Below, piece by piece: positions 7,700 through 63,240 of a stretch of 64,000 bases of DNA. The stretch is from assembly GCF_026914265.1 (NCBI RefSeq), contig NC_069135.1:1071001-1135000 (forward strand), read 5' to 3'. The notes beneath the pieces are model-generated. The model searched no databases. It was given only the letters and a program-made list of their open reading frames with translations, and was not told where the DNA came from. Origin of the DNA: Mya arenaria. Taxonomy: Eukaryota; Mollusca; Bivalvia; Myida; Myidae. Numbering within the stretch: the first letter of the stretch is position 1; each line of letters opens with the position of its first letter. Made by a program: the position numbers and the translations under genes.

Positions 7700-10600
7700 A
7701 TTTAGATGTGGTATTTAGAAGTCATGTAAAAAGATGCAAAGCGCAAATTGTACTGCCTGACCAACAAACAGTTCTGCCGTAGTTGTAGAGTATGTTTTCG
7801 GACTAAAATAAAGCCAATATTAATTAATATCTTTTTTTGTTTTAGTATGCCTTTATAATTTATTTACACGATACGAATGAGCATAATTAATGCTGTGTTT
7901 CATTTGATTGCTTGACAAATTCAAAATTAATACTTAAGAGGAAACCATATACAAAAAAATATGGAAACTTAACCTGTTGTATAGACATATGTGTCCGACT
8001 CGGACCGTTGAATGATCATTTACCTGAGTCCCATATGGCGATCTGCTAGAATGACCACCTTATGAGAACATTTACACCTATATAGTAATGTGTATCTGAC
8101 TATTTACCAGTTTATCTCACTTAATCATGCATGTGTTATGTAATCATGAGTTTATATATTACACAACGACTCTGACGGATAGACTCTAACAATTAAAAAA
8201 GTTCTATAATATTCCGGAAGTACTTGAACAAACTGAATGTCCTCTTCATTGAAAGCATCGTACCGTCTAGACATTTCCTGAATCCACTCAGAGTTTAGCA
8301 AAGACCTGATTACTCAAAATCAGTTTATACAATAAACATGGCCTTTGTTATGCATTGAAAACAGTGGATTAGCATAACACTCTATATCATATGATGTCAG
8401 CATTTGTTTAACCTACTTTTAGTCATAAAGGTCTTGTAAAACTCACAGTAAGCACTAAATGTTCATGTGTTTTTTGTGAATGACTTTCGAAATAGAGCTA
8501 AATTTTACTCATTTTGATAGGAATATCATCGTGACACATACAAACTATGTACCAAATTGTATGTTTTAATATTTTTTTTAAAATCTCGTTAACTTTTTCA
8601 TTTTCCAATTTCATTGCGATTGCATGCGCCTTTTATTTCATTTTTTTAATGAATTAAGCTTTTCTAAGATTTTTGATATAAAAGGAATAAGAGGAAAAAG
8701 GAATAATTCATTAAACCGTTCAAATAAAGCAAACTTTTCTACCGATCTTCAAGCTTAAAGCTGCACTCTCACAGATTTACCTTTTTTGTCTTGGAAAGAG
8801 CAAATTTTTGCGTAAATACCTGCAAACCAGTGATGAAAGACTGCTGACAAAAGATCATATCGCAGATTTCATATTTCCGTTCCAGAATTAAGGTTTTATG
8901 CATAACACACCATTTTTCTAAACTTTAATATAAAAATCTGCGATCTAATTTTTGTCAGCAGTCTTATATGACTGGTTTATATGCATTTTTTGCATAAATT
9001 GACTCGTTCCAAGACAAAAAAAGTTGTCAAAACGTTCAATCTGTGAGAGTGCAGCTTTAATAAACGTTTAAACATTTAAAACTTTATTAAATGCAACACG
9101 AATGTCGAACGAAAACAATACTGTTGTTGTTCATAATGTGCAGAGGCGTAATGCAATTTCACTAGAAACATACATCAGACTGGGACGAGATTGATGAAAT
9201 GGAAATATAATTCTTATTGAACCTATAGATAAACACAGACTTTATTTTGAAACTTCAAAATCAGGATATAAATATTCTGGTTACTTGCTCGGTTAGTGAA
9301 AGCACATGGAGTAACAGTGCAATTTATCGAATCCTTACAATAAGCCGAACCTCCAAGCCGATTTTACTGTTATACCCAGCGTAAGAAAAAAGAAAGATTG
9401 TTTTTCAGTGGTACTCGAGGCCTTATTAGAAATAAATAATAGAGCTTGATTATTCAATAGACTTTTTTGTCCGGCATTTCTCCGCGGACTTGCACATTAG
9501 CATTTTTGTCCTTAACACTGGCGCTAATGCCTTATACAACTATACTTGTTAAACAGGCCAACCAGTAAGCTACGGTCATAGGAGCTTGCTTTGTGTATAC
9601 ATAATTCCAATAGAATATGGACAAGTATATGTTTGATAATTGAACTACCTTTCTGTTTAAATGACCTCTTTATGAGTGTAAGAACATATTTTTGAGAAGC
9701 AACTTAGATATTTACTTGTCCTAAATGATTAGATGAAGATTTTTATAGAGTCTAAATAACTGTTAAACGTCCGTTTGTTACTAGTAAGCATCGGGTATAT
9801 TGCTACTTGCAACAAAATGATTTCAGTACAAATATTTCTATGAAAAGCTTCAGAAACAAGCTTAGTAGCCAAAAGTTAAAAAACGCCGTTTATTGCACAG
9901 TGTAAACGCCAAAGACATAAAACATATCGTTGTTTTGTAGGAAGTTATTCAGCGGTAATGTGTTTGGTTTTAATTCCCTTTTCCCGAAAAGGTAAGGTTT
10001 ATTACTGTTGACAACAAGCTGCGATTCTGTGTATATGAAATAATGTCTAACCCTTTTGTAGGAAAGAAAACTATACAACGAATCCAGCGTTAGAAGGGTT
10101 TTGGCGGTACTATTATTTCCGAATAAAGCAAAATTAAAATACTTAACTAAAGGCAACCATAGTATTGAGTTCGTTAATTAGTCTTTTAAGAGGCATGGAA
10201 TCCATGGCAGGATTTCTGGAAGGCTTTGACAAATTAAGTCAGTATTGTAATTCTACCCCTGATAGCCTTAAAAAATGTTTTTCGTTCACTGAACTTACTT
10301 GAAACATGCATAATAAAACTATTTAACCCTGAAGAAACTGGTTTAAGTGGTTTAGGAATAGCCTTTTCGTGACATAATTGCAATAAACAAATTTTACATG
10401 TCTGAGATGTTCCTTTAATGTTCGAGTCATTCAGTATAAATATCACGAGTAGGATAAAAAACACTAACGCCTTCAAATTCTTTGTTTTTGAACCTGTTGC
10501 TACCGCAAAAACCTTTGTTTCAACAATCAAATAAAAACGGACATCCATTAAACGATTTGGTTAGTTGTATTTCAAACAACAAAAAGGATACAGCCTTTTG

Positions 10601-18243: not shown

Positions 18244-19064
18244 ATATCTGTAATCAGATTTGTTAATTCATAATGTTATTGTTCCTTTAAACAGTTTAAA
18301 CCTTTTATGTCATCAACATAAACAGACGCATGTTCAGTAAAAAAAATACTCTGTATACAACGTTCTCGTACTCCAGAGCGATGATGCTATGCATTATATT
18401 TATCACCATCTGACTGACTGAGTAACTGCCAAAACTTTTCCGTTAAAGAGACTCTCTCATGTTTTGGCACCAAACATATTTTTTCTCGTAATGCATCTGA
18501 AAACACTTATATGTATATTTATTTTACTCCTTGGTACTGAAATTGCAGAAATAATAGTAACCAGGTTGATTTTCTTACTTCAATTGCATTTTTAAAAAAC
18601 GATTGAAGTATTAAAAATTAATCTTGTTCAAGTTGGGAGCAAGCACATAGGGGTGCAGATAACACATAGAATAAAAAACGGATCGCTTATCCACTCGCCC
18701 ACAGGGACTCATACTAAGGTGTTGAACATTTTAACCTTAATGGAAGTTATTGGTTTATCACGTGATTATGTCAATCAACTGATTGTGCAACAGCCTTTTG
18801 TTGAATCGGGTTAGTAACGCATTTCCAAATATTGGACTTCAAAGACTATATGTTAGCACATATCAATATTTATTGAAGGGTTTCAGCCATCAATAGCTTA
18901 GCTTTAACACTTCGTTTGATACGCCATACTTTATTTCGTAATAACAATCTATAAAATCCAAGTAAAAGATGCATTTTTAAAACCCTTAACGCTTCATAAT
19001 CATATCCTCTTTAGCGGCTGAGGAAGCCGGTCCAAACCATTCACATACTTTCCGAGTTTCTTAA
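18244..19064. other. Non-coding flank of the mariner
   Basis: AT-rich DNA with no recognised gene or repeat. Confidence 0.5.
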
Positions 19065-19282
19065 TACGAGGGTATAGCCAGAAGTTCGTGAAATTCCTTA
19101 ATACAATCAACACATTTTAATATTTTTCAACGAACGTCAGCTCGCTATAAAATCTATTTCAGCTGTAAATGACATAGAAAACTTCAAACTGATACATAAA
19201 ATATAAAGGAAACTACAGCTTTTTCATTAACATGAGATCAGTATAGCCCGCGCAGTTCAAACGTCAGAATCTGACGTCAACG

Positions 19283-20546
19283 TCATAACTTATCAAAGTA
19301 AGAGCCGTTCGCCGCAATACAACGTCGAAGTCTCGCTACCCACTGCCGCTAAATGTCACTGAACCACTCTGACTTGTAAAAATACAGGCGTGTCTGAGCT
19401 TCACTCTGTAGTGCCTGAAAGTCATTGAAGCGTTTACCTTTAGTTCACATTTAAGTTTCGGAAATAAGGCAAAATCGCATGGTGGTAGGTCTGGCGAATA
19501 AAGGGGGTGGGAAAGGATCTCCGCTTCAAGCTGGATTGTCGCGGTAGTCGGTGCCTCCTCCGATCTATGTGCTGATGCATTTTCCTGGTGAAGAATCCAC
19601 CCATCATGCAACGCCAGTGGTCTCTTAAATGCCATCGCCCTCTACAAGTCACGCCTCAAAACCTTAAATGGAGAACATAACTGAGGCTTATAACATTTGT
19701 CGCGTTTTGCGTACTTCATCAAATATAATTAAAACTAACACTTATTCAATCCCATATTTTTAATCATACACTTTTTAAAACATTGTTTTATGCAGATTTT
19801 ATCAAGTCCTAAATATTGATAAAAATGAATTTTGTTATATATTACTTTACCTTTTAGTAGGAAGCACCCGTCACAGATTGGCTCTGCGGAACTGCATGGA
19901 GTAGGATAACACCGTGCACATCAAAGAAGAAAATGATCATATACTTTCCTATCGAGCAGGATGGTCGTGCCTTCTTCGGAGGCGGGGAACTGGTAGTCTT
20001 CCATTGACTGCTTTGCTGTTTTGTCTTAGGGTCGAAATAAAACAGTCAGGTTTCATCGCAAGTGACTATCTTCTCAAGAAAACGGTTTCCTTCCTTTTAG
20101 TACCGAGCTAAGGATCGGCGTGATTCCCGTACTCTTTTGCTCATCTCATCTTCTGTCAGCAGCCGTGGAACCCAACGCGCACTCACTCGACTCATTTTCA
20201 AACTGTCTTTCATTATCCTCCGTACCGACCCATAACTCATGTCCAACATCTTGCATATTTCATAAAGAGTGACTCGACGATCAGCGTCAACGATGTTTTT
20301 TACGGCCTCGACGTCACACACTGTAGTTTGTGAAACCGGTCGCCCAGACCTCACGTCGTCACAAATGCTTTCCCGCCCCTCACTGAACCGCTTGTGCCAC
20401 TTGTAAACGAGCATTCGCTTCACTTGAGTTTCACTCGATGCTTCATTCATCAGTTCAAGTGTTTGCGATGGAGTTTTCCCTAGGTTTACACAGAACTGTA
20501 TCACTGCCCGTTTTATCAATCTGTCTTCTGGCGTCATTTTAAACAA
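19283..20546 (-). pseudogene. Mariner transposase, inactive copy
   Basis: The first 149 codons are open and hold the paired helix-turn-helix DNA-binding part, ending with the WVPRLL motif that marks the linker before the catalytic core. Reading on after a TAA near 20097 gives the first catalytic aspartate in CDETW and the FFDVHG segment. A 188-bp AT-rich insert follows (19663-19850). After it comes HQENASAH, where the usual second aspartate is a glutamate, then YSPDLPPCD with the third aspartate, and the C-terminal SEWFSDI...RRCIAANGSYF. In-frame stops lie near 20097, 19854, 19640 and 19346, with one frame change near 19437. About 358 residues without the insert, the usual family length. No active product is possible. 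Confidence 0.88.
19663..19850 (-). other. Intron-like insert within the mariner transposase
   Basis: On the coding strand the insert starts AAG-GTAAAGTAAT and ends ATTTAAG-GTTTTG. Removing it joins an AAG codon to GTT TTG AGG CGT GAC and continues the transposase in frame. The boundaries fit a GT-AG intron, although the pyrimidine tract is weak. The repeated AAGGT at both edges also allows insertion of a short element with a 5-bp duplication. Confidence 0.5.
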
Positions 20547-20921
20547 ACTTTAACTATTCCGTTCAAGCTAAAATGTTTCCTTTGAAATAAACAAACAAAC
20601 GCACTGACTTAAAACTTCACTTCATCACACGTTATTAACGTCACGTCAAATGTGCAAACCTTCGCGCCGTTTTATTGGTTTCAATGTGAGTGGTCAACAA
20701 AACAAGATATTGTCATGGGTTATTTTAGCAACTGCGGAGGAATGCGCGACCACCTGTTTCCATAGTGATCACTACGTTGTCGTTATAACATGCTTTACGA
20801 TGAATCTCGCATTCTTAATTTCAAATTACCTGATTATTATTGTATGAAAGTTTAAAAGATATGCTGCATATTGTTTTCATTTTATCAAGCTTTTCCACGA
20901 ACTTCTGGCTATGCCCTTGTA

Positions 20922-21278
20922 TATAAATCTCTTATAAATTTGCTAAATAAAATTCAACATGGGTAAACAATTATAAAAAAATAACGTATTTTATGTATTG
21001 TAACATATTTATAAAAAATAGTCACTTGAATCAAATGAACATTTTCAATGTACTTTCTTTCTCGCGGAAAGTGGACATTTCATCTTACTCCAACAAGTGT
21101 GGGGTATGGTTGATTCTCTTCGTGACTGAAATCAACTTTTTTAAACACTTGGTGCATTTCAAATGTAGTCCATATAAACATCCCCTTCAGATTCTTTGAC
21201 GATTGCATTTCCATGGGAGATCACTGCGTAGGATAAACATACAAGTGTTGTTTAGCCACACTGTGGTTTCAATTATGT
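20922..21278. other. Non-coding DNA after the mariner
   Basis: Nothing recognised. Confidence 0.5.
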
Positions 21279-21529
21279 CAGGGGCGTAGCTACCCCTCTA
21301 TTCATGAGGATTCATAAATGTGCTGGTGGTTCGGGGCAAACTTGAAAATTTTGAAAACCATGGTGCAATCTAGTGCATTCTGGGCGTTCCGATGTGCATT
21401 ATTTAGTACTGGAAAATAACCAGTTTTAGATTCATGTAGTCAAGTTCGCATACTGCAACTTTGGTTGATTTTTTTGTCAGAATCATGTGGATTCAGCCGC
21501 GTATTCACGTATAGGCGGCTACACGCCTG
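21279..21529. mobile_element. Short hAT-like element with CAGGGGCGTAGC end
   Basis: Left end CAGGGGCGTAGCTACC and right end complementary to CAGGCGTGTAGCCGCC. The flanks share a TATGT string but no clean 8-bp duplication. 251 bp, no coding. Confidence 0.5.
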
Positions 21530-27444: not shown

Positions 27445-28713
27445 TAGGGATGCAAACGAATATTCGAATATTCGAATATTCGATCAAACGTTTGGTATTC
27501 TAATGTCAAAATCGGTATTCGAATATTCGAAAAAAGTTCAATAAAGAGAATAAAACACATTTTGCCTACAACGCTGATGTTGTTTATAAAGTTCGTTTGT
27601 CTTGTTTTTACAACGATTGGCCCCTTATGCCAGAGGTGTGAATGTGATGACTAGACACGCGTCATGTGTCATTTAGGTACATAACGCCGGGTACTATAAA
27701 AGGTCCCCCTACTTTTACAACAACTAGCTAACCGCCCGGTTAGCTCAATCGGTAGAGCGTTGGACTCTGAATCGAACAACCCGGGTTCGATTCCCGGGCG
27801 GACCAGGTCACTTCTGTTGTGATTGGTTATGAAATCCTTTCTACGACCATTCGCACTGTACCACTGTCCCTGGCATGTACAGAAGTTGTCAGTTCCTTGC
27901 AGAGGTGAAGGCACCCAGTACTGGTTCTGCCCAGGATAGGTGTGCGATGGTTGAACTGTCACTCTGGGACCCTTCAATGTGCTCACGCCGGGACCCGGAG
28001 TATAAACTACTAACACCACCACAACAACTAGCTAGGGATCGGCTTTAACACCAATGTATTGTCTTGGCTGCAACTACTGTACAACAAAGCGCAAATGGAA
28101 GTGATGATATGAATGTCATGTGCTACAACAATGTTGTTGCATATATGTGCTTTTTAAATAAACTGTTTCCATGTTTCGATACAATTTTCGTGCTTTGAAA
28201 TGGATTTTAGGATATATTTCCTCTCTTGTTGTACAATAGCTGAGTCCAATACACTTATGTTTTCGTTTAATTATTTTACTAGAACCGAGTTGGTTTGGGG
28301 TTTCCATATCTTTATTTAGTCAATTTAGAGGTCAATCTCAGAACGAGGCTGATTATCCTACGGAAAGACCCTCCATAGGCGCAAAACACTGTTTGACTAG
28401 GAATCCATCTAATTTCACATTGTTTACAAAAGGCAGCGGAATTGAATTATTCAATTTGTTGTTTATAATGTTTTGCTTTTTTCTTCCTGAAAATGGAGAA
28501 TTTCAAAGGCTCATTTGGGGAAATCAGGGTCCGTTGCGCGTACTGGCTACGACAAAGTAGGGTAAAAAACGCCCCGGCTATTGCTTTAGCGAATAATAAT
28601 AATATTTAATACATCTTCTAAAATACGTATTTCGGTAATCGAATATTCGAATATTCGATCGAAAGAATTACCGAATATTCGGATATCAATTTTGCCATTC
28701 GTTTGCATCCCTA
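27445..28713. mobile_element. hAT-type non-autonomous element, 8-bp target duplication
   Basis: The ends begin TAGGGATGCAAACGAAT in inverted orientation. Just inside, both ends carry repeats of ATTCGAATATTCG. An exact 8-bp duplication GTTTAAAT flanks it (27437-27444 and 28714-28721), the target length of hAT elements. No transposase domain was found in the 1269 bp. A SINE (27731-28020) with its own target duplication sits inside, so the SINE is younger. Confidence 0.88.
27731..28020 (+). mobile_element. tRNA-derived SINE nested in the hAT element
   Basis: The head is tRNA-like, with an A box (TAGCTCAATCGG, 27741-27752) and a B box (GGTTCGATTCC, 27784-27794) for RNA polymerase III. The body is unrelated to tRNA and ends in a short ACCACCACAACA-type tail. 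A perfect 14-bp duplication ACAACAACTAGCTA flanks it (27717-27730 and 28021-28034), as expected for LINE-driven insertion. The head can form a CCGCCC/GGGCGG stem but not a proper cloverleaf. Confidence 0.9.
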
Positions 28714-30325: not shown

Positions 30326-30719
30326 ATATATTGATTTCAGTAACTGTTGACTCAGAAAGTAACAAAAATAAAAGTCATCAATTTTCAGGTTTATCAGTAG
30401 TTTTTAAACATGTTACATGCTTCAAAGGAAACATTCTTTATTTGTCTGGTTAAATACTTTTGACAATGATGGTTGGATTTCAACTAAGTTATGGTACACC
30501 ACTCTGCTATTATTTGAGACTTTCCAGGAACGGTTTTACTTTTCTTTATGCACCCGTTTGCTTTCAATCACCCTCTGTAGAATACTAACCTCCCTGAAAC
30601 ATAATTACATGAAGAGTGGGACGGCAAATTTACCATATAAGCCATTAGCCAAGGAAACCTCAATGCTGTCAAGAGGACCTGGGGGTTCAGGTTTGAAGAA
30701 CAAGTCCCCGGCGAAATAA

Positions 30720-31120
30720 TGACCATGGTCGACCATGGTCCCCACGGTTTTTGACAGTTTTTGACGGTCAACCATGTTTTATCATGGTTAACCATCAAGT
30801 ACCGTGGCAAAATCATTGCCTGGACCACGGTCGACCACGGTCGACCGTGGTCGACCATGGTCTACCATGGTACAAAAAAGATCACCATGGTATACCATGG
30901 TTTGACCATGGTCGACCATGGTCTACCATGGTACAAAAAAAGATCACCATGGTATACCATGGTTTTTGAAGGTCAACCATCAAGTACCGTGAAAAAACCC
31001 ACAGTAGACCATGGTACAAAAGTTTTACTCCGAGAGTCACCATTTCAACCATGGTCTACCATGGTACACCAAGGTTGACCATGGTCAGCCACTGTGACAG
31101 TTTACCATAGTCTACCATCA
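30720..31120. repeat. CCATGG palindromic minisatellite, left cluster
   Basis: Dense array of units like ACCATGGTCTACCATGGT and ACCATGGTCGACCATGGT. The unit is nearly its own complement, so every unit and the whole array can fold. Open frames on both strands here are by-products of the repeat. Confidence 0.9.
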
Positions 31121-31439
31121 TCCTTTTTTTATCTGATTCTTTACTTTGGATAAGTCTAAAAATGATTTGTTGATTTTGGTAAATTACAGAAATAGCAACT
31201 TAATAAATGTGGTCTTATTCTTTACTGATATTTAGTAAACACACAACTTGTCAACAACAGAAGTTGTGTTTTAGTATTAACCCTTTACCAGCTGTTCTGC
31301 TAATTTTAGACTCATCCACAACGAAAGCATCTGATGAAAAGGAAGAATATCTATTGGAAAGGAAGAATGCCAAATTTGAAAACCTTTGAAAACATTGTGG
31401 GAAATAGAGCATTTGCTCATTACCGAGCATCTATGCTCC

Positions 31440-31840
31440 ATTACCTCTGTGAAATGATGTTCTTGTGTTTAATTACTGTTCAAGAACTATGCAAAACTGT
31501 ACTAGAACAGTAACTGATCACTTTTAAGAACAGTTGTACTTGAACAGTTCAAGAATACTTTTTAAGAACAGTTCTTGAATTTTTTAAAGACTATTGTTGT
31601 TCTAATACTGTTCTATATTAAAGTCTAGTAAAATATAAGAACATTTCATGAATAGTGTTTGCACTTAAAATGTTCTTGAACTGTTCATAAAGACAAATTG
31701 GCACATTTAAAGAATAGTTTATGAACTTTTATGTTCTTAATATGTTCTTGAAATGTTCTTTTTAAACAATTTGGCACATCATAGGAACAGCTTATGAACA
31801 TGGCAAGTTCTTAAAATGTTCTGCATATGTCTTTGAAAGG
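31440..31840. repeat. Scattered TGTTCTTGAA motifs
   Basis: The ten-base motif TGTTCTTGAA, its complement and close variants (AGAACAGTTCTTGAA and others) occur more than a dozen times in 400 bp, without fixed spacing. Confidence 0.5.
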
Positions 31841-32089
31841 AAACTTGTACAAAAACAAGTAGTTGCATAAGCAACAGGCAGGAAGTTGAGGTAGCTGTGG
31901 TTACAACTGGCTGGTGCATTTAGTGTAACACATTTGGCCCAGTTATAACCCAAAGATTATAAATAAAAAAATAACAAACGTAAAGAAAATTCCATATCAA
32001 AATAACATGAACATTAAAATTAAATTTATTTTAATTAAAGCACCACATATATCATATGTATCATGTAAGGTGCCATGGATTGCTCACAG

Positions 32090-32320
32090 GTCACATTGCC
32101 TGGATACAGTAATTTATATTTTTTATATATTTTTTTTAATAATTTTTTTTATTTATTATTGTCAAGATTTTGTCAAGTTATTAGTAGCTTTTTTCATGAA
32201 AAATGTGGAATATTTTTTAAAATGACATATATTCACTATCTTGTCAAAAAAAAAATTAAAAATAAAAAAATATAAAAAAATATTTTATTTTATATAAAAT
32301 TACTGTATCCAGGCAATGTG
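32090..32320. mobile_element. Small inverted-repeat element (MITE-like)
   Basis: TCACATTGCCTGGATACAG near 32090 is exactly inverted near 32305-32322, and the AT-rich interior continues as an inverted match. About 230 bp, no coding. Target duplication not clear. Confidence 0.7.
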
Positions 32321-32751
32321 ACGAGCACCTGTGGTCAACACTGGTTAATTAGTTGTTAAACCGGTTAAATATAATATTTACAAAATACTATAGCCATATT
32401 CTAACATAGCTATATAACTATATTCTAACGGTTACGCATTTAAGACGAAACGCTCTTCACTGGCGGAGATAGTTTCGAACGCCCGCCATTTTTGTCGAAA
32501 TAATGCGCCAAATAAACTGATGTCTTGTTTCGTTTATTTAAGGTAAGTTCAAGCGATGTAAGGAGTATAATTTAGTAACGTTTATAACGATCTTTTACGC
32601 TAATATTATTGTTGAAAATAACATAGCAACATTTTGAAGTAATGAGCAAATATGTTTTGCTGTAATACATTTTCGCGACAAACATACGAAATACGTTTGT
32701 GTAGAAACACAGTTAAATGCTTGTTTTTGACTAGCGTTCAGCTAATACTTA

Positions 32752-32753
<2 letters not shown>

Positions 32754-32793
<40 letters not shown>
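32754..32793. repeat. (TA)n microsatellite
   Basis: About 20 TA units. Confidence 0.95.
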
Positions 32794-32797
<4 letters not shown>

Positions 32798-33094
32798 GCA
32801 GCTTTTAAATTTGTTTCTTAACGTTGGTAAGCTATTTTTGTCGAGAAAAAGGATCAATTGTAATGGGCCGGCAGCGATGCAAAAGTGGGTGGGGAAGGTC
32901 AAAAACTAAAACCTTTAAAAAAGTTTTTATTGTTTTGAGGAACGATCTTTTAGGGGAGTGAAACATATATTTTTGGCGACATGTTAGTAGGGAGTTAACA
33001 AATTTTACAATAGAATATTAATATTTTAATCAATACAATTCCATTTCACTGATTTTGATCTTTGTTAAGTTTGTTGTCAATCCTATTTATGTGA

Positions 33095-33435
33095 CCATGG
33101 TCTACCATGGTATGTGACCATGGTCTACCATGGTATGTGCCATGGTCTACCATGGTAGTTCATGATATATTATGGTATACCATGTAACGTCAAATGGCCG
33201 CCCCACGGTTTATGACCATGGTCTACCATGGTGTGCTACCATGGTCTACCATGGTGTGCTACCATGGTCTACCATGGTATCAAACCATGGTAGGCCATGG
33301 TCTACCATGGTATAATACCATGGTCTACCATGGTGTGATACCGTGGGGCGGCCATTTGACGTAACATGGTAGTCCATGGTAGTCCATGGTCATATGACCA
33401 TGAACTACCGTGGTAGTCCATGGTAGTCCATGGTT
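33095..33435. repeat. CCATGG palindromic minisatellite, right cluster
   Basis: Array of CCATGGTCTACCATGG units, partner of 30720-31120. Within it a perfect 23-bp inverted repeat (33187-33209 and 33340-33362, beginning ACGTCAAATGGCCGCC) encloses five or six of the palindromic units. Confidence 0.9.
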
Positions 33436-35139
33436 ATTGGCCATCATTTTCGCAGGGGGTAACATGCAGGTTTTATTGCCAAAATTGCACATTTAAGTCT
33501 GACATATCAATCCGAAAGTCAGTATCTGACACATTTGTATCTGACAAGAAAATATAGTTCAAGAATTGAAACATACCTGCCACACAAGCACAAACGTAAT
33601 TCACCTTAAGAGTTCGGACATTCTATAAATTCGGACATCCATTATTATTTTCAAAAATAATTTATTTTAGGTACCTTATTTTCGGACACCCAAAGGACAT
33701 CGACTGAACTTTTACAGTTACTAAGTCTCACAGACAAAAATTATTGATCTTTATCGTTACAATGCCTGGCTAGATTACCTAACCGTATACATCACTGTGA
33801 TAAGTTAGTTGGTTACTACCCATCCTAAACGATTTATTGCCTGGTGAAAAGGATGTGTGATATATTCAATGGAGGATTAAAGAAACAACAAGGGCAATGC
33901 AAAGATTAAGAAAACACAGACATGACATGTTTGTAAAACGATCCGCCAATTAACTTTGAAACTTGTATCACACTTTTAATATAGACTTTATGAAGCAATA
34001 ATCGTACAGTAATACTCATTGAAACATCAATCATGCCAAGAAATACCAGCCAATTTTTCCACTTTTCATTTCTACACAAGAGCCAATTTCAGCTACACAT
34101 TAACCCCTAATTGACCGAGAATCTGACCATGTGTTTAATCATGTTTTCATATCTAGGGAGTTGCTGTAGTTTGGGTCAAGATTTGGAAGAATGTATTTAA
34201 TTTTGCCCAGAAAGACGTGAAGAAGTATCAAGTGTTAACTACAAATTAATTAAAATTACAGAGTACTTAATTTAGTAAAACTTATTATTTACTTATTCTT
34301 AAACAAAAATATGATGTTTTTAATGAGTAACATTATCGTTTTAGACATACATGTGTATGACAGATGTTAATGAAAATGGTATGCTTAACAAACCGTTTTA
34401 TTTGGAATGAAAATGTAACCTATATTACATTATATATGAATCTGGCCGTCTCGTAGGTCGAATTATATTTAAGGGTATGCTTTACTAAGCGTATGGATAT
34501 TGATTTTAAAATGTCAGATTTATTGGGTTCACATTTTTTAACAAAAACACACACTCTTATTGTTCATATTTAAAGCTTTGTTGTTTTTATTTCACTGTAA
34601 AAAATATTGAGTTCGTAAGTATACGTATACACCATGGAAAATGGGAAATACAAACGAAAATTAAAAAAAAATATCACATTGGCGAAACTGAATCTCCGAA
34701 TGTTAAATTTACTTCAATTTTGTTCATATTATCATGAACTGATGAGGCGGTTAAAATGCATTTTCGTATAACTGATTGGGATTTGTTTTTGCAATGTTTC
34801 AATCTAAAAAAATGCTTAGTTTTGTGTTCATCTGGCATTGTCTTCATACCGTGACCTGTGAAAGAACATGTTTTGACCGACATAAACTCACAACAATGGT
34901 CGCTGTCCTTGAGTGACTCCTTTTCTGTAAAATATTGACCCACCCCCACCCCAAATAATAACATGACTCAGAACGTTACTGTAAATAGGTATTTAACCCC
35001 ACCGAACAGAACCGACTTTGTTGGTCATTTAATATGTGTGCTCTTAAGTCTTAGTAATACAGGTGGTAATGCTGCAGCTATTGTTGTTGATACTGCCACT
35101 ACTGCTTCTGCTATTGCCAATGTCAACACCACCGCCACA

Positions 35140-35721: not shown

Positions 35722-35856
35722 TTAAGCATATTTTCGACATCCACAGTTAAACAACTCCCCGGTATCATTTTATTAAATATACATGAGTCATAACATTTTG
35801 AGCCGGAAGTTGATAAGTTTGACTGGGGTTTGTGATTCTATTTGTTTCAAAAAACT

Positions 35857-35980
35857 TCCTCACGCCGGCCAAATCCTAAGAGCCTCTTATAGAACAATAC
35901 CGTACTCAAGTTGTTAAATTAAACGACTTGATTACGGTATTGTTCTATAAGAGGCTATTAGGATTTGGCCGGCGTGAGGA
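35857..35980. repeat. Near-perfect 124-bp hairpin
   Basis: Arms of 47 bp (35857-35903 and 35934-35980) differ at one base. The 30-bp centre is itself partly self-complementary (TCAAGT...ACTTGA). Probably a palindromic small transposon relic. Confidence 0.9.
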
Positions 35981-37940
35981 AAATATTTAGCTGTCGGGGA
36001 ACTAAGAAATATAGTTAGTACATTTGTACTTGATGTTTTCAATCTTTAAACATAATTAAACATAATAACAAGAGTGTGGTTTAGATAGTTAAATATTGTT
36101 ATCAAGGAGATTGTTCATAAACAATATCAAAGATGTAATGCTTAGCTTAGTTAATTAATTATTATACTTTTTATAGTTAAGAAAATCATGTCAATACTTA
36201 ATAATAAACTATTATTGAATTTTTATTTTTATTTTTGACAAGTGTCGTAATCAACAAAATGAGATGAAGCGTTAAATCTAAGAACCATGCACTAAAGAAA
36301 GATTTTTCCGAAAAATGACCAAAATTATTGCTCCCCTGAATTTCATGCTGGTCGTAATGGCCATTAAATGGAATGAATTAGCTGTAACAGCAGATAACTG
36401 ATAAAAATTTCATGGAGAACCAAGTCAGTCCTTTAACCCTTAGCACAAAACCACTGAATGGAACATAATGCACATGCTTCTAAAATCCAGGTATATGCTG
36501 GCATACAGGGGTTTCCTTCTTAATTGAAAATTGGATAGGATTTCTTGGCATGAAAACAATAAAGTCAACACATTCAATGATACAGGTAACTATTAAATGT
36601 GATGAATTAAAGTTATAAATGCAATACTCAAGTTACAATAAAAAAACACCAGACACATTAATCCAGCATAACAATATCCATGCTCTCCATGAGATCCTCG
36701 TGGGTATAACTGAGTTATGTGACGTCACACAATGGGACTGTTTGATCTGAAGCCGATAAAAGGTGTTTATTCATTTCAATGCATGTATAAAATGGTGTTG
36801 AATGGGATTTTAACCATCTTGATGAAGGAGCTACAGTGACTTATAGGCGTAATAACCATTGATAACTACGGATAAATTAATAAGTGGTAAAATGCAGACA
36901 TGAAGAAAAAAGGCAGGTTTACCATACATGTAAATAAAATGTAAAAATGGTTATTTTCTATGAATTCGTAGAGCGAAAAATTAATTATTTTAAGGTGTCC
37001 GAACTCTAAGGTGAAGTACGGTAAATACATTAAAAAAATCCAACTCTAATATTGTCAACTTTACGTACATACATTTCGTAACAAATGCTTTTCGTACCCA
37101 AATCACATTTTTTTCAGGGAAAAATAGGTTGGGGTCGGCGGGAAAAAATAGGGTCGGTCGGGTAACCTGAAACAGACCTATTTTTTATTTGGCCTAACAA
37201 ATAATTTAAGGTTGTTTTTTGTCGGTTTCGGATATAAAGTATGCAGAATATGAATCAATTTGAGAAAAAAACAGAACAAAATTTTGTTCGTTTTAAACAA
37301 TTCAAACAAATATAGTCAATGAAATAGGTCAAGAATGATCATTTATGTAAACGTAATTTTACTCAAAAATACATCGCGATCAGTCTTTAATTATTGTTTA
37401 TAAGTAAGCAAAATGTAAGAAAATAATTAACATATTTTGGTAGTATAACAAATCATTTCTACTTTAGCATGATATATATATATATCTAATAACTATTGAG
37501 TAACATAAATTATTGGCTTGTTACTAGTGAGAATTCGAGTAATGTCTCCCAATTGGTGTCTTGGTTGCTGTGCCATATACATCCAGGTTCGAACAATACA
37601 CTTAACGAGGTGCTAAGTGTACTATTTATCACCTTGTTAAATGGTGGTTATTATATGAGCAATTGATTACTTGACGGTTACGAATTGACTAACAGAATGG
37701 TTACGAAATAACCAAGATCAGCAGTTACGAAATGGTAAGGTTACGAAATGACCAGATCCCCGTCAAATGCCCCTGGGGACATCCTAGGTTAGGCCCAATC
37801 CCTGTTATCAGCGCAAAAACAGTAACACCGCATTCACTCAGCACTGCCGGTCCACCTGGAAGGTAAAAACATGGCCCATTTCCCCTGCTATCCCCGGTAT
37901 AAACAAGACCTGGGCGCCATTGTTACAATTGACTGGTGCA

Positions 37941-42706: not shown

Positions 42707-43700
42707 AAGGAAATGTGCCGTTTTATGTCAGTACTGTTTCTATCATCAATCATGCAAACATACAATGGGGAAATATCGTTCACTTAAGTGTCATCTGAAA
42801 TTTAGCTGAGGAATATTTATTTTGAAAATGAGCATAAAGTTCGTGAAATAATTACAGTTTTATACTTGCTTTATATGGATATATTTTATGTATATATTAT
42901 ATGTATATGCGGCTTCGCTGCTCCCAGCTCCATTTTCTGTAGATCGCCAAAATTGAACAATAGCAAATTTGGAGTTCGCACTAATTTGACCTACTGACTT
43001 CGACTCGTTCGACTTAGTGGCTGTGTAGTAACGTGATATTTTGGCATAAATGTTATTTTAGTTTGTTTTTTCTATGTATTCACCGTGAAAGCGTCGTACA
43101 TTTCGCTAAAATGATCGTGTTTCGTCTTCCAGTCATTTTATTATGCAATGAACTTAACTAATTGACAAGTTTTGCGCTGATAATTTTTTTTTGATATTTC
43201 GTCAATTAGAAATACCATTACGTAATCTCAGTACATATCTGATTAATTTTAATCTATGTATTTAGCTAAATGTTTAAAAGATTGCCATGGTGGATGTGGT
43301 TTTTATCTCACAAGGATGTGTAGATACTGCTTTTTATGACACTTATTATGACTCAGTTGACTAAAGACCAGTAAGGGGGTGGTATTTCGTAAATAAATAA
43401 AGGCACAAGGCTGTATGATCCAACACATCCAACCACCTCTGACAAACAACGTCCAACAACTCATCAGGCGGAGTCAGACTCCCATTTGCCCTGAGTTGAC
43501 AGCATCCTCAACTGTCAATTAAAGACACCCTATGCATGTGCATCGGCACAGATGTCTTCAGAAAAATAGACGTATAGTTTTGTGTTACGCAAAATAAATG
43601 ACTTTCTCTACTAAGAGAAATTGAGCTTCAGCAAGTCGGAAAAATTATCATCCAACCAAAAAGTGCAAACACGAAGACTGTTTATTGGTCCAAAATAAGT
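42286..43700. repeat. Segmental duplication, left copy
   Basis: Matches 45815-47010 in the same orientation. Shared pieces start at ACATCATGACTGTGGTTTTAAG, pass through CTACAGTCAGGTGC and GGAGTTCGCACT, and end with GGCGGAGTCAG...TTGCCCTGAGTTGACAGCA. The left copy gained an (ATT)n run and a large minisatellite at its right end. Confidence 0.8.
42644..42704 (+). repeat. (ATT)n microsatellite
   Basis: About 20 ATT units; absent from the paralogous segment near 46050. Confidence 0.95.
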
Positions 43701-45235
43701 GCAAACACGGAGACTATTCATGTCCCCCTAAATAAGTGCAAACACGGATTCATTTATGCATGTACGCCCAAATAAGTGCAAACCTCCAGACTGTTCATTG
43801 GCCCACAAATAAGTGCGAACACAAAGACTGTTCATTGGCCCACAAATAAGTGCGAACACAAAGACTGTTCATTGGCCCACAAATAAGTGCAAACCTTCAG
43901 ACTGTTCATTGGCCCACAAATAAGTGCGAACACAAAGACTGTTCATTGGCCCACAAATAAGTGCGAACACAAAGACTGTTCATTGGCCAACAAAAACTTG
44001 CGATCACGAAGACTGTTATTTGGCCAACGAATAAGTGCGAACCTTCAGACTGTTCATTGGCCCACAAATAAATGCGAACACAAGGACTGTTCATTGGCCA
44101 ACAAATAAGAGTGAACACGAAGACTGTTCATTGGCCAACAAATAAGAGCGAACACGAAGACTGTTCATTGGCCAACAAATAAGAGCTTTCACGAAGACTG
44201 TTCATTGGCCAACAAATAAGAGTGAACACGAAGACTGTTCATTGGCCAACAAATAAGAGTGAACACGAAGACTGTTCATTGGCCCACAAATAAGTGCGAA
44301 CACAAAGACTGTTCATTGGCCAACAAAAACTTGCGATCACGAAGACTGTTATTTGGCCAACGAATAAGTGCGAACCTTCAGACTGTTCATTGGCCCACAA
44401 ATAAATGCGAACACAAGGACTGTTCATTGGCCAACAAATAAGAGTGAACACGAAGACTGTTCATTGGCCAACAAATAAGAGCGAACACGAAGACTGTTCA
44501 TTGGCCAACAAATAAGAGCGAACACGAAGACTGTTCATTGGCCAACAAATAAGAGCTTTCACGAAGACTGTTCATTGGCCAACAAATAAGAGTGAACACG
44601 AAGACTGTTCATTGGCCAACAAATAAGAGTGAACACGAAGACTGTTCATTGGCCAACAAATAAGAGTGAACACGAAGACTGTTCATTGGCCCACAAATAA
44701 GTGCGAACACGGAGACTGTTCATTTGCCAACAAATAAGTGCGAACACGAAGACTGTTCATTGGCCCACAAATAAGTGCGAACACGAAGACTATTCATTGG
44801 CCCACAAATAAGTGCGAACACGAAGACTGTTCATTGGCCAACAAATAAGAGCGAACACGAAGACTATTCATTGGCCCACAAATAAGTGCGAACACGAAGA
44901 CTGTTCATTGGCCAACAACTAAGAGCGAACTAGAAGACTTTTCATTGGCCAACAAATAAGTGCGAACATGAAGACTATTCATTGGCCCACAAATAAGAGC
45001 GAACACGAAGACTTTTCATTGGCCAACAAATAAGAGCGAACACGAAGACTTTTCATTGGCCCACAAATAAGTGCGAACACGAAGACTATTCATTGGCCAA
45101 CAAATAAGAGCGAACACGAAGACTATTCATTGGCCCACAAATAAGTGCGAACACGAAGACTGTTCATTGGCCAACAACTAAGAGCGAACTAGAAGACTTT
45201 TCATTGGCCAACAAATAAGTGCGAACCTCCAGACT
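43660..45235. repeat. 37-bp minisatellite, about 42 units, with higher-order copy
   Basis: The unit reads GAACACGAAGACTGTTCATT followed by GGCCAACAAATAAGAGC, with CCAACAAATAAGAGC/CCCACAAATAAGTGC variants. A block of units at 43906-44118 recurs almost unchanged 333 bp later (nine units). Frames of 60-73 codons on both strands follow from a unit length not divisible by three and are not genes. Confidence 0.95.
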
Positions 45236-51997: not shown

Positions 51998-52480
51998 CAG
52001 TGTGAGTATACCACGTGATAAATTACGTCATAAATGCTACGTCGGAAGGCAGCATTTTGCTTCGAATGAAAACTTTAAACAAAGATAACTTTTCTTTTTC
52101 TTCACCATTTTAAGTGAAACAAAGTGCAGTCTATGTCGCTTGAAGAGCCTCACCTTCAATTACCGGAGTATGATGAGGTGATTAAGTTTCTCAAACACTT
52201 CGACAAACCTGTTCTCAAAAAAAAGGTTTAGAAGGTGCTCCGTCAGGCGGTAGTTTTATGAAATGGTTTGTCGGAGTGTTTAAAGAAACTAAACTCTTAA
52301 TCAAACTCTGGTAAAAGACCGTAGGCGGGGCTCTGTAAGCGGCATAGGCTGCGCTATGTTTAATTTAAAATGGTGCAGGAATGGTTTAGTTATCTCTGTT
52401 TAAATTCTTGATTAGAAGCAAAAAATTGCCTTTCAACGAATCATTTATGACGCAATTTATCACGTGGTATTCACACACTG
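51998..52480. mobile_element. Foldback element with long imperfect arms
   Basis: Left arm (from CAGTGTGAGTATACCACGTG) and right arm (to TACCACGTG inverted, then CACACACTG) pair over about 230 bp each. They meet near 52237 and show many point differences and small indels. No coding; no target duplication defined. A single-arm relative is at 23290-23510. Confidence 0.85.
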
Positions 52481-61708: not shown

Positions 61709-61831
61709 TTACTGCGTGTTATGGAGAATAACGCAGACTTCCAATGGAAGAAGAATTTAAAATAAAGGTTATTAAATACTGAATAAGAATATTTAAATCT
61801 AATACGAACTCTCTTTCCAAGCTTCCTTATT

Positions 61832-61987
61832 TAAGGAATAAATTGCGGTGTTGATGTCATTATCGGGGTATGAACGCAATTGGGTTGGTCAATGTGTGTG
61901 GAGTCCGAAGGACTCCACGCGTACTTTGACCAACCCAATTGCGTTCATATCCCCGATAATGACATCAACCCCGCAATTCATTCCTTA
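61832..61987. repeat. Near-perfect palindrome of 156 bp
   Basis: Arms run from AAGGAATAAATTGCGG through ATTATCGGGGTATGAACGCA to GGAGTCC, around a three-base centre GAA at 61907-61909. There are only a few mismatches and small indels. The string GAACGCAATTG occurs again at 62350-62360. Likely a palindromic small transposon. Confidence 0.9.
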
Positions 61988-61989
61988 TA

Positions 61990-63240
61990 TTTACACCAAT
62001 AGTTCATTATTTCATTCAAGAATTGTTAAAAAAAATTCTTCATTTCATTTAAGAAAACCTTTAAGTAATCCGTTCTTACCCATTCTGTAAATAGAACGAC
62101 CCGATGACGTCACAATAACGCGGGAAAAGATCAACCACTTGAAATCACTTTAAAACGTAAAATTGAAACACTTCTGGTACCATTATATTTAAAATATAAT
62201 AAACTAACACTTTTAAAAATGTTGATCTATATTTTACGGGACCTGCAGACACAATACAACCAATAACAAGATCAATAGCTTTAATGTATATTGTTATGCA
62301 ATAAATTACGATCCGAACATATCCGAAGATGTTGCGTTCATCGATTGATGAACGCAATTGCTGAAAGGCAGTTAATTTAAGGAATGGAAGTTGAGGTGTA
62401 AATATATAATGTTGAAATTAATAAAGCAAGACTTATTGATATTATAAAAACAATCTTGCTAAACAGATATTGTTGAATCCGACATTAGAAACATTCAGTT
62501 GGTATAAAAACGAACTCAAATGTAATACATATGACTAAATATAGCACTTATAAAAAATCGGGTTTCCTTTAACGATTTATTGATTGAAACGAGAAGACAT
62601 CACAAAATTCCCAAGAACAGAAATAAGTTGTACTTATTGCAACATGAATGTCATTTAAAATGAATATTATTTCCATCTAGATCGTTCCAATTTTAATAAT
62701 TTAAGGAAATAATTCTTTAAATCCGACTTTTGCTATTGGCCTACAAAACAAAACATTATATTTTTGACGTCATGAGAATTTAGAAAAACGAAATATCTGA
62801 AAAGTTGAATACCATGTATTAATATAACGATCACGAACCTAATAAGATAACTAGTACTATTTTCACTAATATGTATGGAATTGTGCAAAATCACTCTATT
62901 GAACATATCTTCGGTTATTAAGACAATGTGATGCATAATTTATGCTGGCTATGAATGTTTTAAACGTTTAATGCTCAAAAATGCTATGTTATGTTATGTT
63001 TAGTCATTGTTAAGTGCAAAATTAAATGACTGTATTTTAATTGATTGAAAGGATTTAAGTTACATTTATATGCCATATACAATGTAGCATTCTTTCTTTG
63101 TATGCAAGATGTTTTGATTGCAATGTACACTGTTTTTTTGTTATAAGTCTTTATCATTTTATGATGATTGTTAAGAAATCCCATCATTGTAAAGGCATTT
63201 AGGAAATTGCTCTTAAGTTTGTTTTTTGTTAAGTTTTAAT
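61990..63240. other. Non-coding DNA
   Basis: AT-rich; no gene recognised. Confidence 0.5.

Follow-up and report, generated by a model that had tools for sequence, protein, structure and literature searches.

Two arrays of self-complementary decamers as possible ends of a foldback-like element in Mya arenaria

Two arrays of the self-mirroring word ACCATGGT lie about 2 kb apart in the genome of Mya arenaria, separated by sequence that includes an array of another such word, and the question raised by this locus is whether the ACCATGGT arrays form the ends of a single mobile element. The window analysed was a stretch of 64,000 nt (assembly GCF_026914265.1, contig NC_069135.1, positions 1,071,001 to 1,135,000, forward strand), and all positions given here are those of the window. 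The favoured reading, to which we assign a probability of about 0.45, sees ~30706 to 33458 as a foldback-like DNA transposon of ~2.75 kb, degenerate and non-autonomous, that was moved in trans. Every statement made here on element status rests on this one copy. The features of the locus are as follows.

30706 to 30721, plus strand: candidate left terminal inverted repeat CCCCGGCGAAATAATG, abutting the left array on its outside
30722 to 31121, plus strand: left array, with 25 ACCATGGT-like sites (15 exact) and a period of 10
31450 to 31850, strand not applicable: period-11 array of degenerate, self-complementary GTTCTTGAAC / GAACAGTTC units
32090 to 32322, strand not applicable: nested MITE-like hairpin with perfect 26-bp terminal inverted repeats GTCACATTGCCTGGATACAGTAATTT
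33094 to 33434, plus strand: right array, with 28 ACCATGGT-like sites (15 exact) and periods of 10 and 23
33187 to 33209, plus strand: left arm of a perfect 23-bp inverted repeat ACGTCAAATGGCCGCCCCACGGT
33340 to 33362, minus strand: right arm of the perfect 23-bp inverted repeat ACGTCAAATGGCCGCCCCACGGT
33442 to 33458, minus strand: candidate right terminal inverted repeat CCCCTGCGAAAATGATG, outside the right array

The window contained 31 exact copies of ACCATGGT, 30 of which fell in two stretches (15 at 30722–31085 and 15 at 33094–33334), confirming the arrays reported by the first-pass annotation; the sole copy outside both arrays was at 21357. A search with the 16-mer CCATGGTCTACCATGG allowing up to 2 mismatches gave 40 matches over both strands, equivalent to 24 distinct places, compared to a mean of 0.03 in shuffled sequence. 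All 40 were confined to 30723–31084 or 33095–33433, and an identical 16-mer was present exactly in both arrays. When up to 2 mismatches to the 8-mer ACCATGGT were allowed, a greedy non-overlapping choice within the two arrays only gave 25 places in the left array and 28 in the right, while the same tolerance over the whole window gave 291 overlapping matches, 229 of them having 2 mismatches. The basic unit is a palindromic 8–10-mer (GACCATGGTC) rather than a 16–18-mer. The annotation had described dozens of near-palindromic units of 16–18 bp; at 16-mer length they number two dozen rather than several dozen.

The left array contained a 61–62-bp direct repeat at 30843–30965 with copies 96–98% alike, and in three runs of 23-bp copies the likeness was 97%, 100% and 89%, indicating local amplification. 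Lattice fitting gave a period of 10.22 for the left sites and 11.19 for the right sites, with equally good fits in 27 and 22 of 2000 randomised lattices, respectively. Helical phasing for protein binding was considered as the origin of these periods and rejected, the fits being taken instead as the trace of decayed tandem decamers.

The folding of the arrays as RNA was compared with that of shuffled sequences. The right array (33088–33440) gave a minimum free energy of −231.8 kcal/mol against a mean of −127.6 over 100 shuffles (z −17.9), and the left array (30715–31125) gave −189.4 against a shuffle mean of −110.7 (z −13.9). Neither value was matched by any shuffle, in agreement with the hairpin folding expected by the annotation. 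The right array contains a hairpin at 33161–33388 with 94-nt arms that are 80% complementary, and within it lies the perfect 23-bp inverted repeat, enclosing more units as had been claimed. In its minimum-energy fold the right array is closed between 33091 and 33437, and by itself this array is near-palindromic. Such closure lends little weight to a palindromic element, because self-complementary units fold shut in any order. When 364 slices of 350 bp were scanned with 12 shuffles per slice, those starting at 8751, 35701 and 61776 had a lower fold z than the best array slice; these slices are simple long hairpins, so that strong folding alone is not unique to the arrays. Another set of 636 slices (400 bp each) was ranked by self-complementarity, and the first 24 were tested for periodicity at lags 9–13 and 20–23; high self-complementarity together with a lag z above 5 was found at three loci only, all within 30.5–33.6 kb. 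The property that distinguishes the arrays is the combination of self-complementarity with a short period.

Several inverted repeats were recorded elsewhere in the window. These comprise a 140-bp MITE-like hairpin at 35849–35988 with 70-nt arms, 90% complementarity and no loop, a long MITE-like hairpin at 61829–61990, and another at ~8757–9058 whose ends AAAGCTGCACTCTCACAGATT match by eye. At 51998–52480 lies the longest of the window's listed inverted repeats, with 158-nt arms that are 80% complementary and spaced by 167 nt.

The third of the self-complementary short-period loci is the array at 31450–31850, which was absent from the first-pass annotation. It gave a z of 6.9 at lag 11, and 21.6% of its 8-mers had their reverse complement inside the array compared to 3.6% in shuffles; an inverted self-match at 31547–31850 had 61% identity over ~300 bp (E 9e-15). 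The interior between the ACCATGGT arrays also contains a (TA)19 microsatellite and the MITE-like hairpin at 32090–32322, beside which no target-site duplication of 4–10 bp was found. A second nested hairpin element may be present in the right array, where the 172 bp at 33189–33360 have perfect 21-bp inverted ends and GTAAC on both sides (33184–33188 and 33361–33365). Units occur both inside and outside this segment and its flank is itself nearly palindromic, which makes the GTAAC direct repeat weak evidence.

If the two arrays are ends of one element, their outer edges might be expected to pair. The sequence CCCCGGCGAAATAATG was identical at 14 of 16 bases, with one gap, to the reverse complement of 33442–33458 (CCCCTGCGAAAATGATG). 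Among six pairings of the array edges only outer-left with inverted outer-right matched, giving a P of 0.013 against 6000 random pairs (uncorrected for six tests), while the remaining five pairings gave P values of 0.74–0.96. In anchored tests random pairs were equally good in 11 of 4492 cases with 20/25 flanks, 39 of 4494 with 25/30, 77 of 4496 with 30/35 and 177 of 4532 with 40/40, and letter shuffles at 25/30 flanks were equally good in 12 of 5000. The resulting P of 0.002–0.04, depending on flank length, is from a post hoc test designed once the match had been seen. Free local alignment of flanks of ~90 bp gave a score of 25 that was equalled by 257 of 1803 random pairs and was not significant, and an extended left-edge match was rejected when gapped alignment gave no improvement on random.

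Other comparisons of the two sides were less favourable to pairing. No target-site duplication of 4–10 bp for the whole element was found beside end pairs with at least 9/14 ungapped inverted identity, which is weak counter-evidence because 60 random intervals averaged 0.8. With the units masked the left and right arrays had no similarity at E<1, a test of low power given that the spacers are short. Without masking the best direct match (74% over 136 bp, 84 bits) exceeded the best inverted match (72% over 129 bp, 65 bits). The spacers of the left array read CT (TCTA three times) with 7 more being orientation-neutral. Those in the outer part of the right array read AG (TAGT three times), the reverse of the CT of the left array, while the inner part has TCTA eight times, running as in the left array, and most of the right spacers have this direction. 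The direct array match and the spacer census make the single-element reading less probable and independent insertion more so. The annotation's proposal of paired ends of a 2.7-kb element has the inverted match of the outer edges in its favour, while the missing duplication, the lack of masked similarity and the stronger direct match speak against it, and the reading of the two arrays as ends of one element is an interpretation that is partly supported.

The proposed element lacks long open frames. The longest stop-to-stop frame was 107 aa and 36 frames had at least 40 aa. Ten of these 36, a set that lies outside the frames made by the arrays, were compared with Pfam and gave no domain above the curated cut-off and no transposase, such as the gene of an autonomous DDE DNA transposon, the single sub-threshold match being DUF2852 (E 0.091). 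As no Pfam family was above cut-off in these ten frames the element, if mobile, is probably non-autonomous. The only Rfam match at the gathering threshold was a tRNA at 27738, with no RNA gene at the arrays.

The main rival to a single element, and a quite possible one, is that one short foldback or MITE-like family consisting of arrays of self-complementary units inserted twice, independently and 2 kb apart, the second insertion possibly attracted to the first and the DNA between them being unremarkable sequence that has a MITE-like hairpin and an 11-bp array of its own. This is consistent with the right array, which is near-palindromic alone as a stand-alone element would be and which folds shut from 33091 to 33437; close to the centre of this array, the perfect 23-bp inverted repeat is bordered by GTAAC to left and right. 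The rival is also consistent with masked arrays that have no common sequence, with an unmasked match that is better direct than inverted, and with arithmetic by which random placement would bring two arrays this close within 64 kb in ~7% of cases. Yet units that close in any order lend the fold weak weight, the direct repeats beside the inverted ends of either single array are fragments of the unit, and the edges match outer to outer, with no inner to outer match inside either array (P 0.74 for the left array and 0.96 for the right).

Transposition is dispensed with altogether if a palindromic decamer seed was expanded in place by slippage and hairpins as a plain minisatellite, partly helped by CpG decay. 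The period-10 tandem lattice and the 23- and 61-bp duplications fit such a history, as do the substitutions at the two core positions, 8 of 9 of which are A>G or T>C and create a CpG (CCACGG or CCGTGG), and the CpG observed/expected ratios of 0.61 in the left array and 0.35 in the right compared to 0.86 for the window and 0.77 for the interior. It is possible that CpG decay contributed to the unit, as CCACGG and CCGTGG both decay to CCATGG. We consider this origin unlikely, since one seed expanding twice 2 kb apart requires copying between the sites, and such an origin explains neither the 23-bp inverted repeat nor the match of the outer edges. A very improbable candidate is a non-autonomous element of Helentron type (HINE), a kind of element known to carry short tandem arrays in oysters. 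The sections of PMC7492417 cited here describe HINEs of Crassostrea gigas with short satellite-like arrays that a mobile element has dispersed in the bivalve genome, as may also have happened here, and with a palindrome at the 3' end, and the (TA)19 microsatellite of the interior would be in keeping with this. The layout, compared by inspection, is nevertheless different, because according to these sections a HINE has a single central array between two modules with 11–12-bp subterminal inverted repeats, and no palindromic units on both sides, while here palindromic units form arrays on both sides.

Under the preferred reading of one foldback-like element, each end would be built from a short terminal inverted repeat and, next to it, palindromic decamers (GACCATGGTC/ACCATGGT) extending over several hundred bases, and the interior would hold the palindromic 11-bp array and the nested MITE-like hairpin. 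The transposase would be supplied in trans by an autonomous element elsewhere, and its dimers are predicted to bind the many dyad-symmetric sites and to pair the ends. This binding is modelled on the DNA-binding domain of the Galileo transposase at repeated sites in long terminal repeats. Each unit reads the same on both strands, so the orientation of a site would hardly matter, and arrays of such sites could expand, contract and invert without loss of binding sites. Slippage and hairpin-mediated template switching may have reshaped the arrays in this way, and free reshuffling would account for the common unit but unlike higher-order layouts at the two ends.

A more far-reaching proposal, which we regard as distinctly unlikely, is a transposon family whose ends are set by self-complementary decamer lattices and not by terminal inverted repeats, so that orientation would be irrelevant and the ends would reshuffle freely; the sequence-unrelated 11-bp lattice of the interior would then serve a different DNA-binding protein as its site array, or else be an older nested element of like design. 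If dispersed copies share the layout described here, the locus would represent a foldback-like element whose ends are made of dyad-symmetric sites in place of long inverted copies, and it would become testable whether internally repetitive ends act via the number of binding sites and not via end-to-end homology. The arrays would also be an assembly hazard, dense palindromes being prone to cloning loss and mis-assembly.

In plant CACTA (En/Spm) elements the subterminal regions of the two ends likewise hold numerous short binding motifs, which lie in either orientation. A difference is that CACTA elements begin CACT(A/G), while the candidate ends of this locus begin CCCC. The closest published likenesses are with foldback ends. 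Galileo of Drosophila, a member of the P superfamily, resembles the locus in having long internally repetitive ends and nested insertions (PMC3688188, PMC2775673), and the THAP domain of its transposase binds further sites in the first two of the four direct repeats of an end (PMC3688188). According to the cited sections the ends of Galileo form inverted repeats that can reach several hundred bases, measuring 575/610 in one copy and 606/580 in another, and are accompanied by target-site duplications of 7 bp; its units are not described there as self-complementary. Here no duplication was found and the arrays have only the unit in common. Tm1 of Meloidogyne (Mutator/Foldback) has composite ends with a variable number of an internally redundant motif of ~14 bp, nested inverted-repeat elements in some members and one copy, Cg-1, without target-site duplications (PMC3169594). 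It differs in that 9-bp target-site duplications define the family and some members code for a transposase, and the motif is not described as palindromic in these sections (PMC3169594). Tetris, a foldback element of Drosophila virilis, is likewise non-autonomous and modular with tandem repeats within its ends, but its repeat is TIR-220 compared to a 10-bp unit here, and its target-site duplications are of 8–10 bp (PMC4079207). The statement of the first-pass annotation that no named family has this design was too strong, as internally repetitive foldback ends are already published for Galileo, Tm1 and Tetris; self-complementary units are not described in the sections cited.

The locus shares with foldback elements its internally repetitive ends, made of tandem sub-repeats. 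The ends are not long mutual inverted copies, the inverted match of the edges being ~16 bp, and no target-site duplication was found at 4–10 bp, published families having 7–10 bp in the cited sections. As inverted-copy ends and a target-site duplication were both tested and not found, the locus was not filed as a foldback member. The element may nevertheless work like a foldback; the Tm1 copy Cg-1 has no duplication either.

The unit was also searched for in other sequences and in the literature. A degenerate 16-mer was found in 83 stretches of the genome_contigs collection, fewer than the ~180 expected by arithmetic from equal base frequencies over 257 billion bases, and none of the 83 exceeded 4 CCATGG in 400 bp. 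A prokaryotic or viral origin of the unit was rejected, the 17-mer having no exact match in the viral_contigs collection. Viral contigs also gave no match to the core of the 23-bp repeat or to the MITE end, and the right array had no match in phages. Three spaced ACCATGGT were found in 6 viral contigs, none of which resembled the arrays beyond the 8-mer in the printed stretches. One of these, the IMG/VR contig L088, has a cluster of ACCATGGT at 162–354 beside TTTTAAAGG-type repeats and is apparently an analogous design unrelated to the arrays. The unit strings were not found in the collection of papers searched, and occurrences of the edge strings in three insect or wheat-pest papers were taken as chance. 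Literature topic searches gave no matching bivalve family among the matches listed; a study of bivalve transposons reports MULE, many other DNA transposons and many MITEs, and the word foldback is absent from its main text (PMC10294476).

The surrounding sequence looks animal. Part of a TIR-domain gene was identified by Pfam near 49–50 kb with a leucine-rich-repeat part alongside just below cut-off, and the window also encodes a chitin-binding domain and a family-2 glycosyltransferase (Pfam). A fragment on the minus strand at 20100–20549 matched the helix-turn-helix families HTH_23 and HTH_29 above cut-off and the Mos1-type HTH_48 just below, and is probably a piece of a mariner-like transposase, as judged from these domain matches; it is flanked by 51-nt inverted repeats that are 80% complementary (19064–19114 and 20872–20922). 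A tandem repeat of 37 bp extends from 43652 to 45226, with 42.5 copies and 87% matches.
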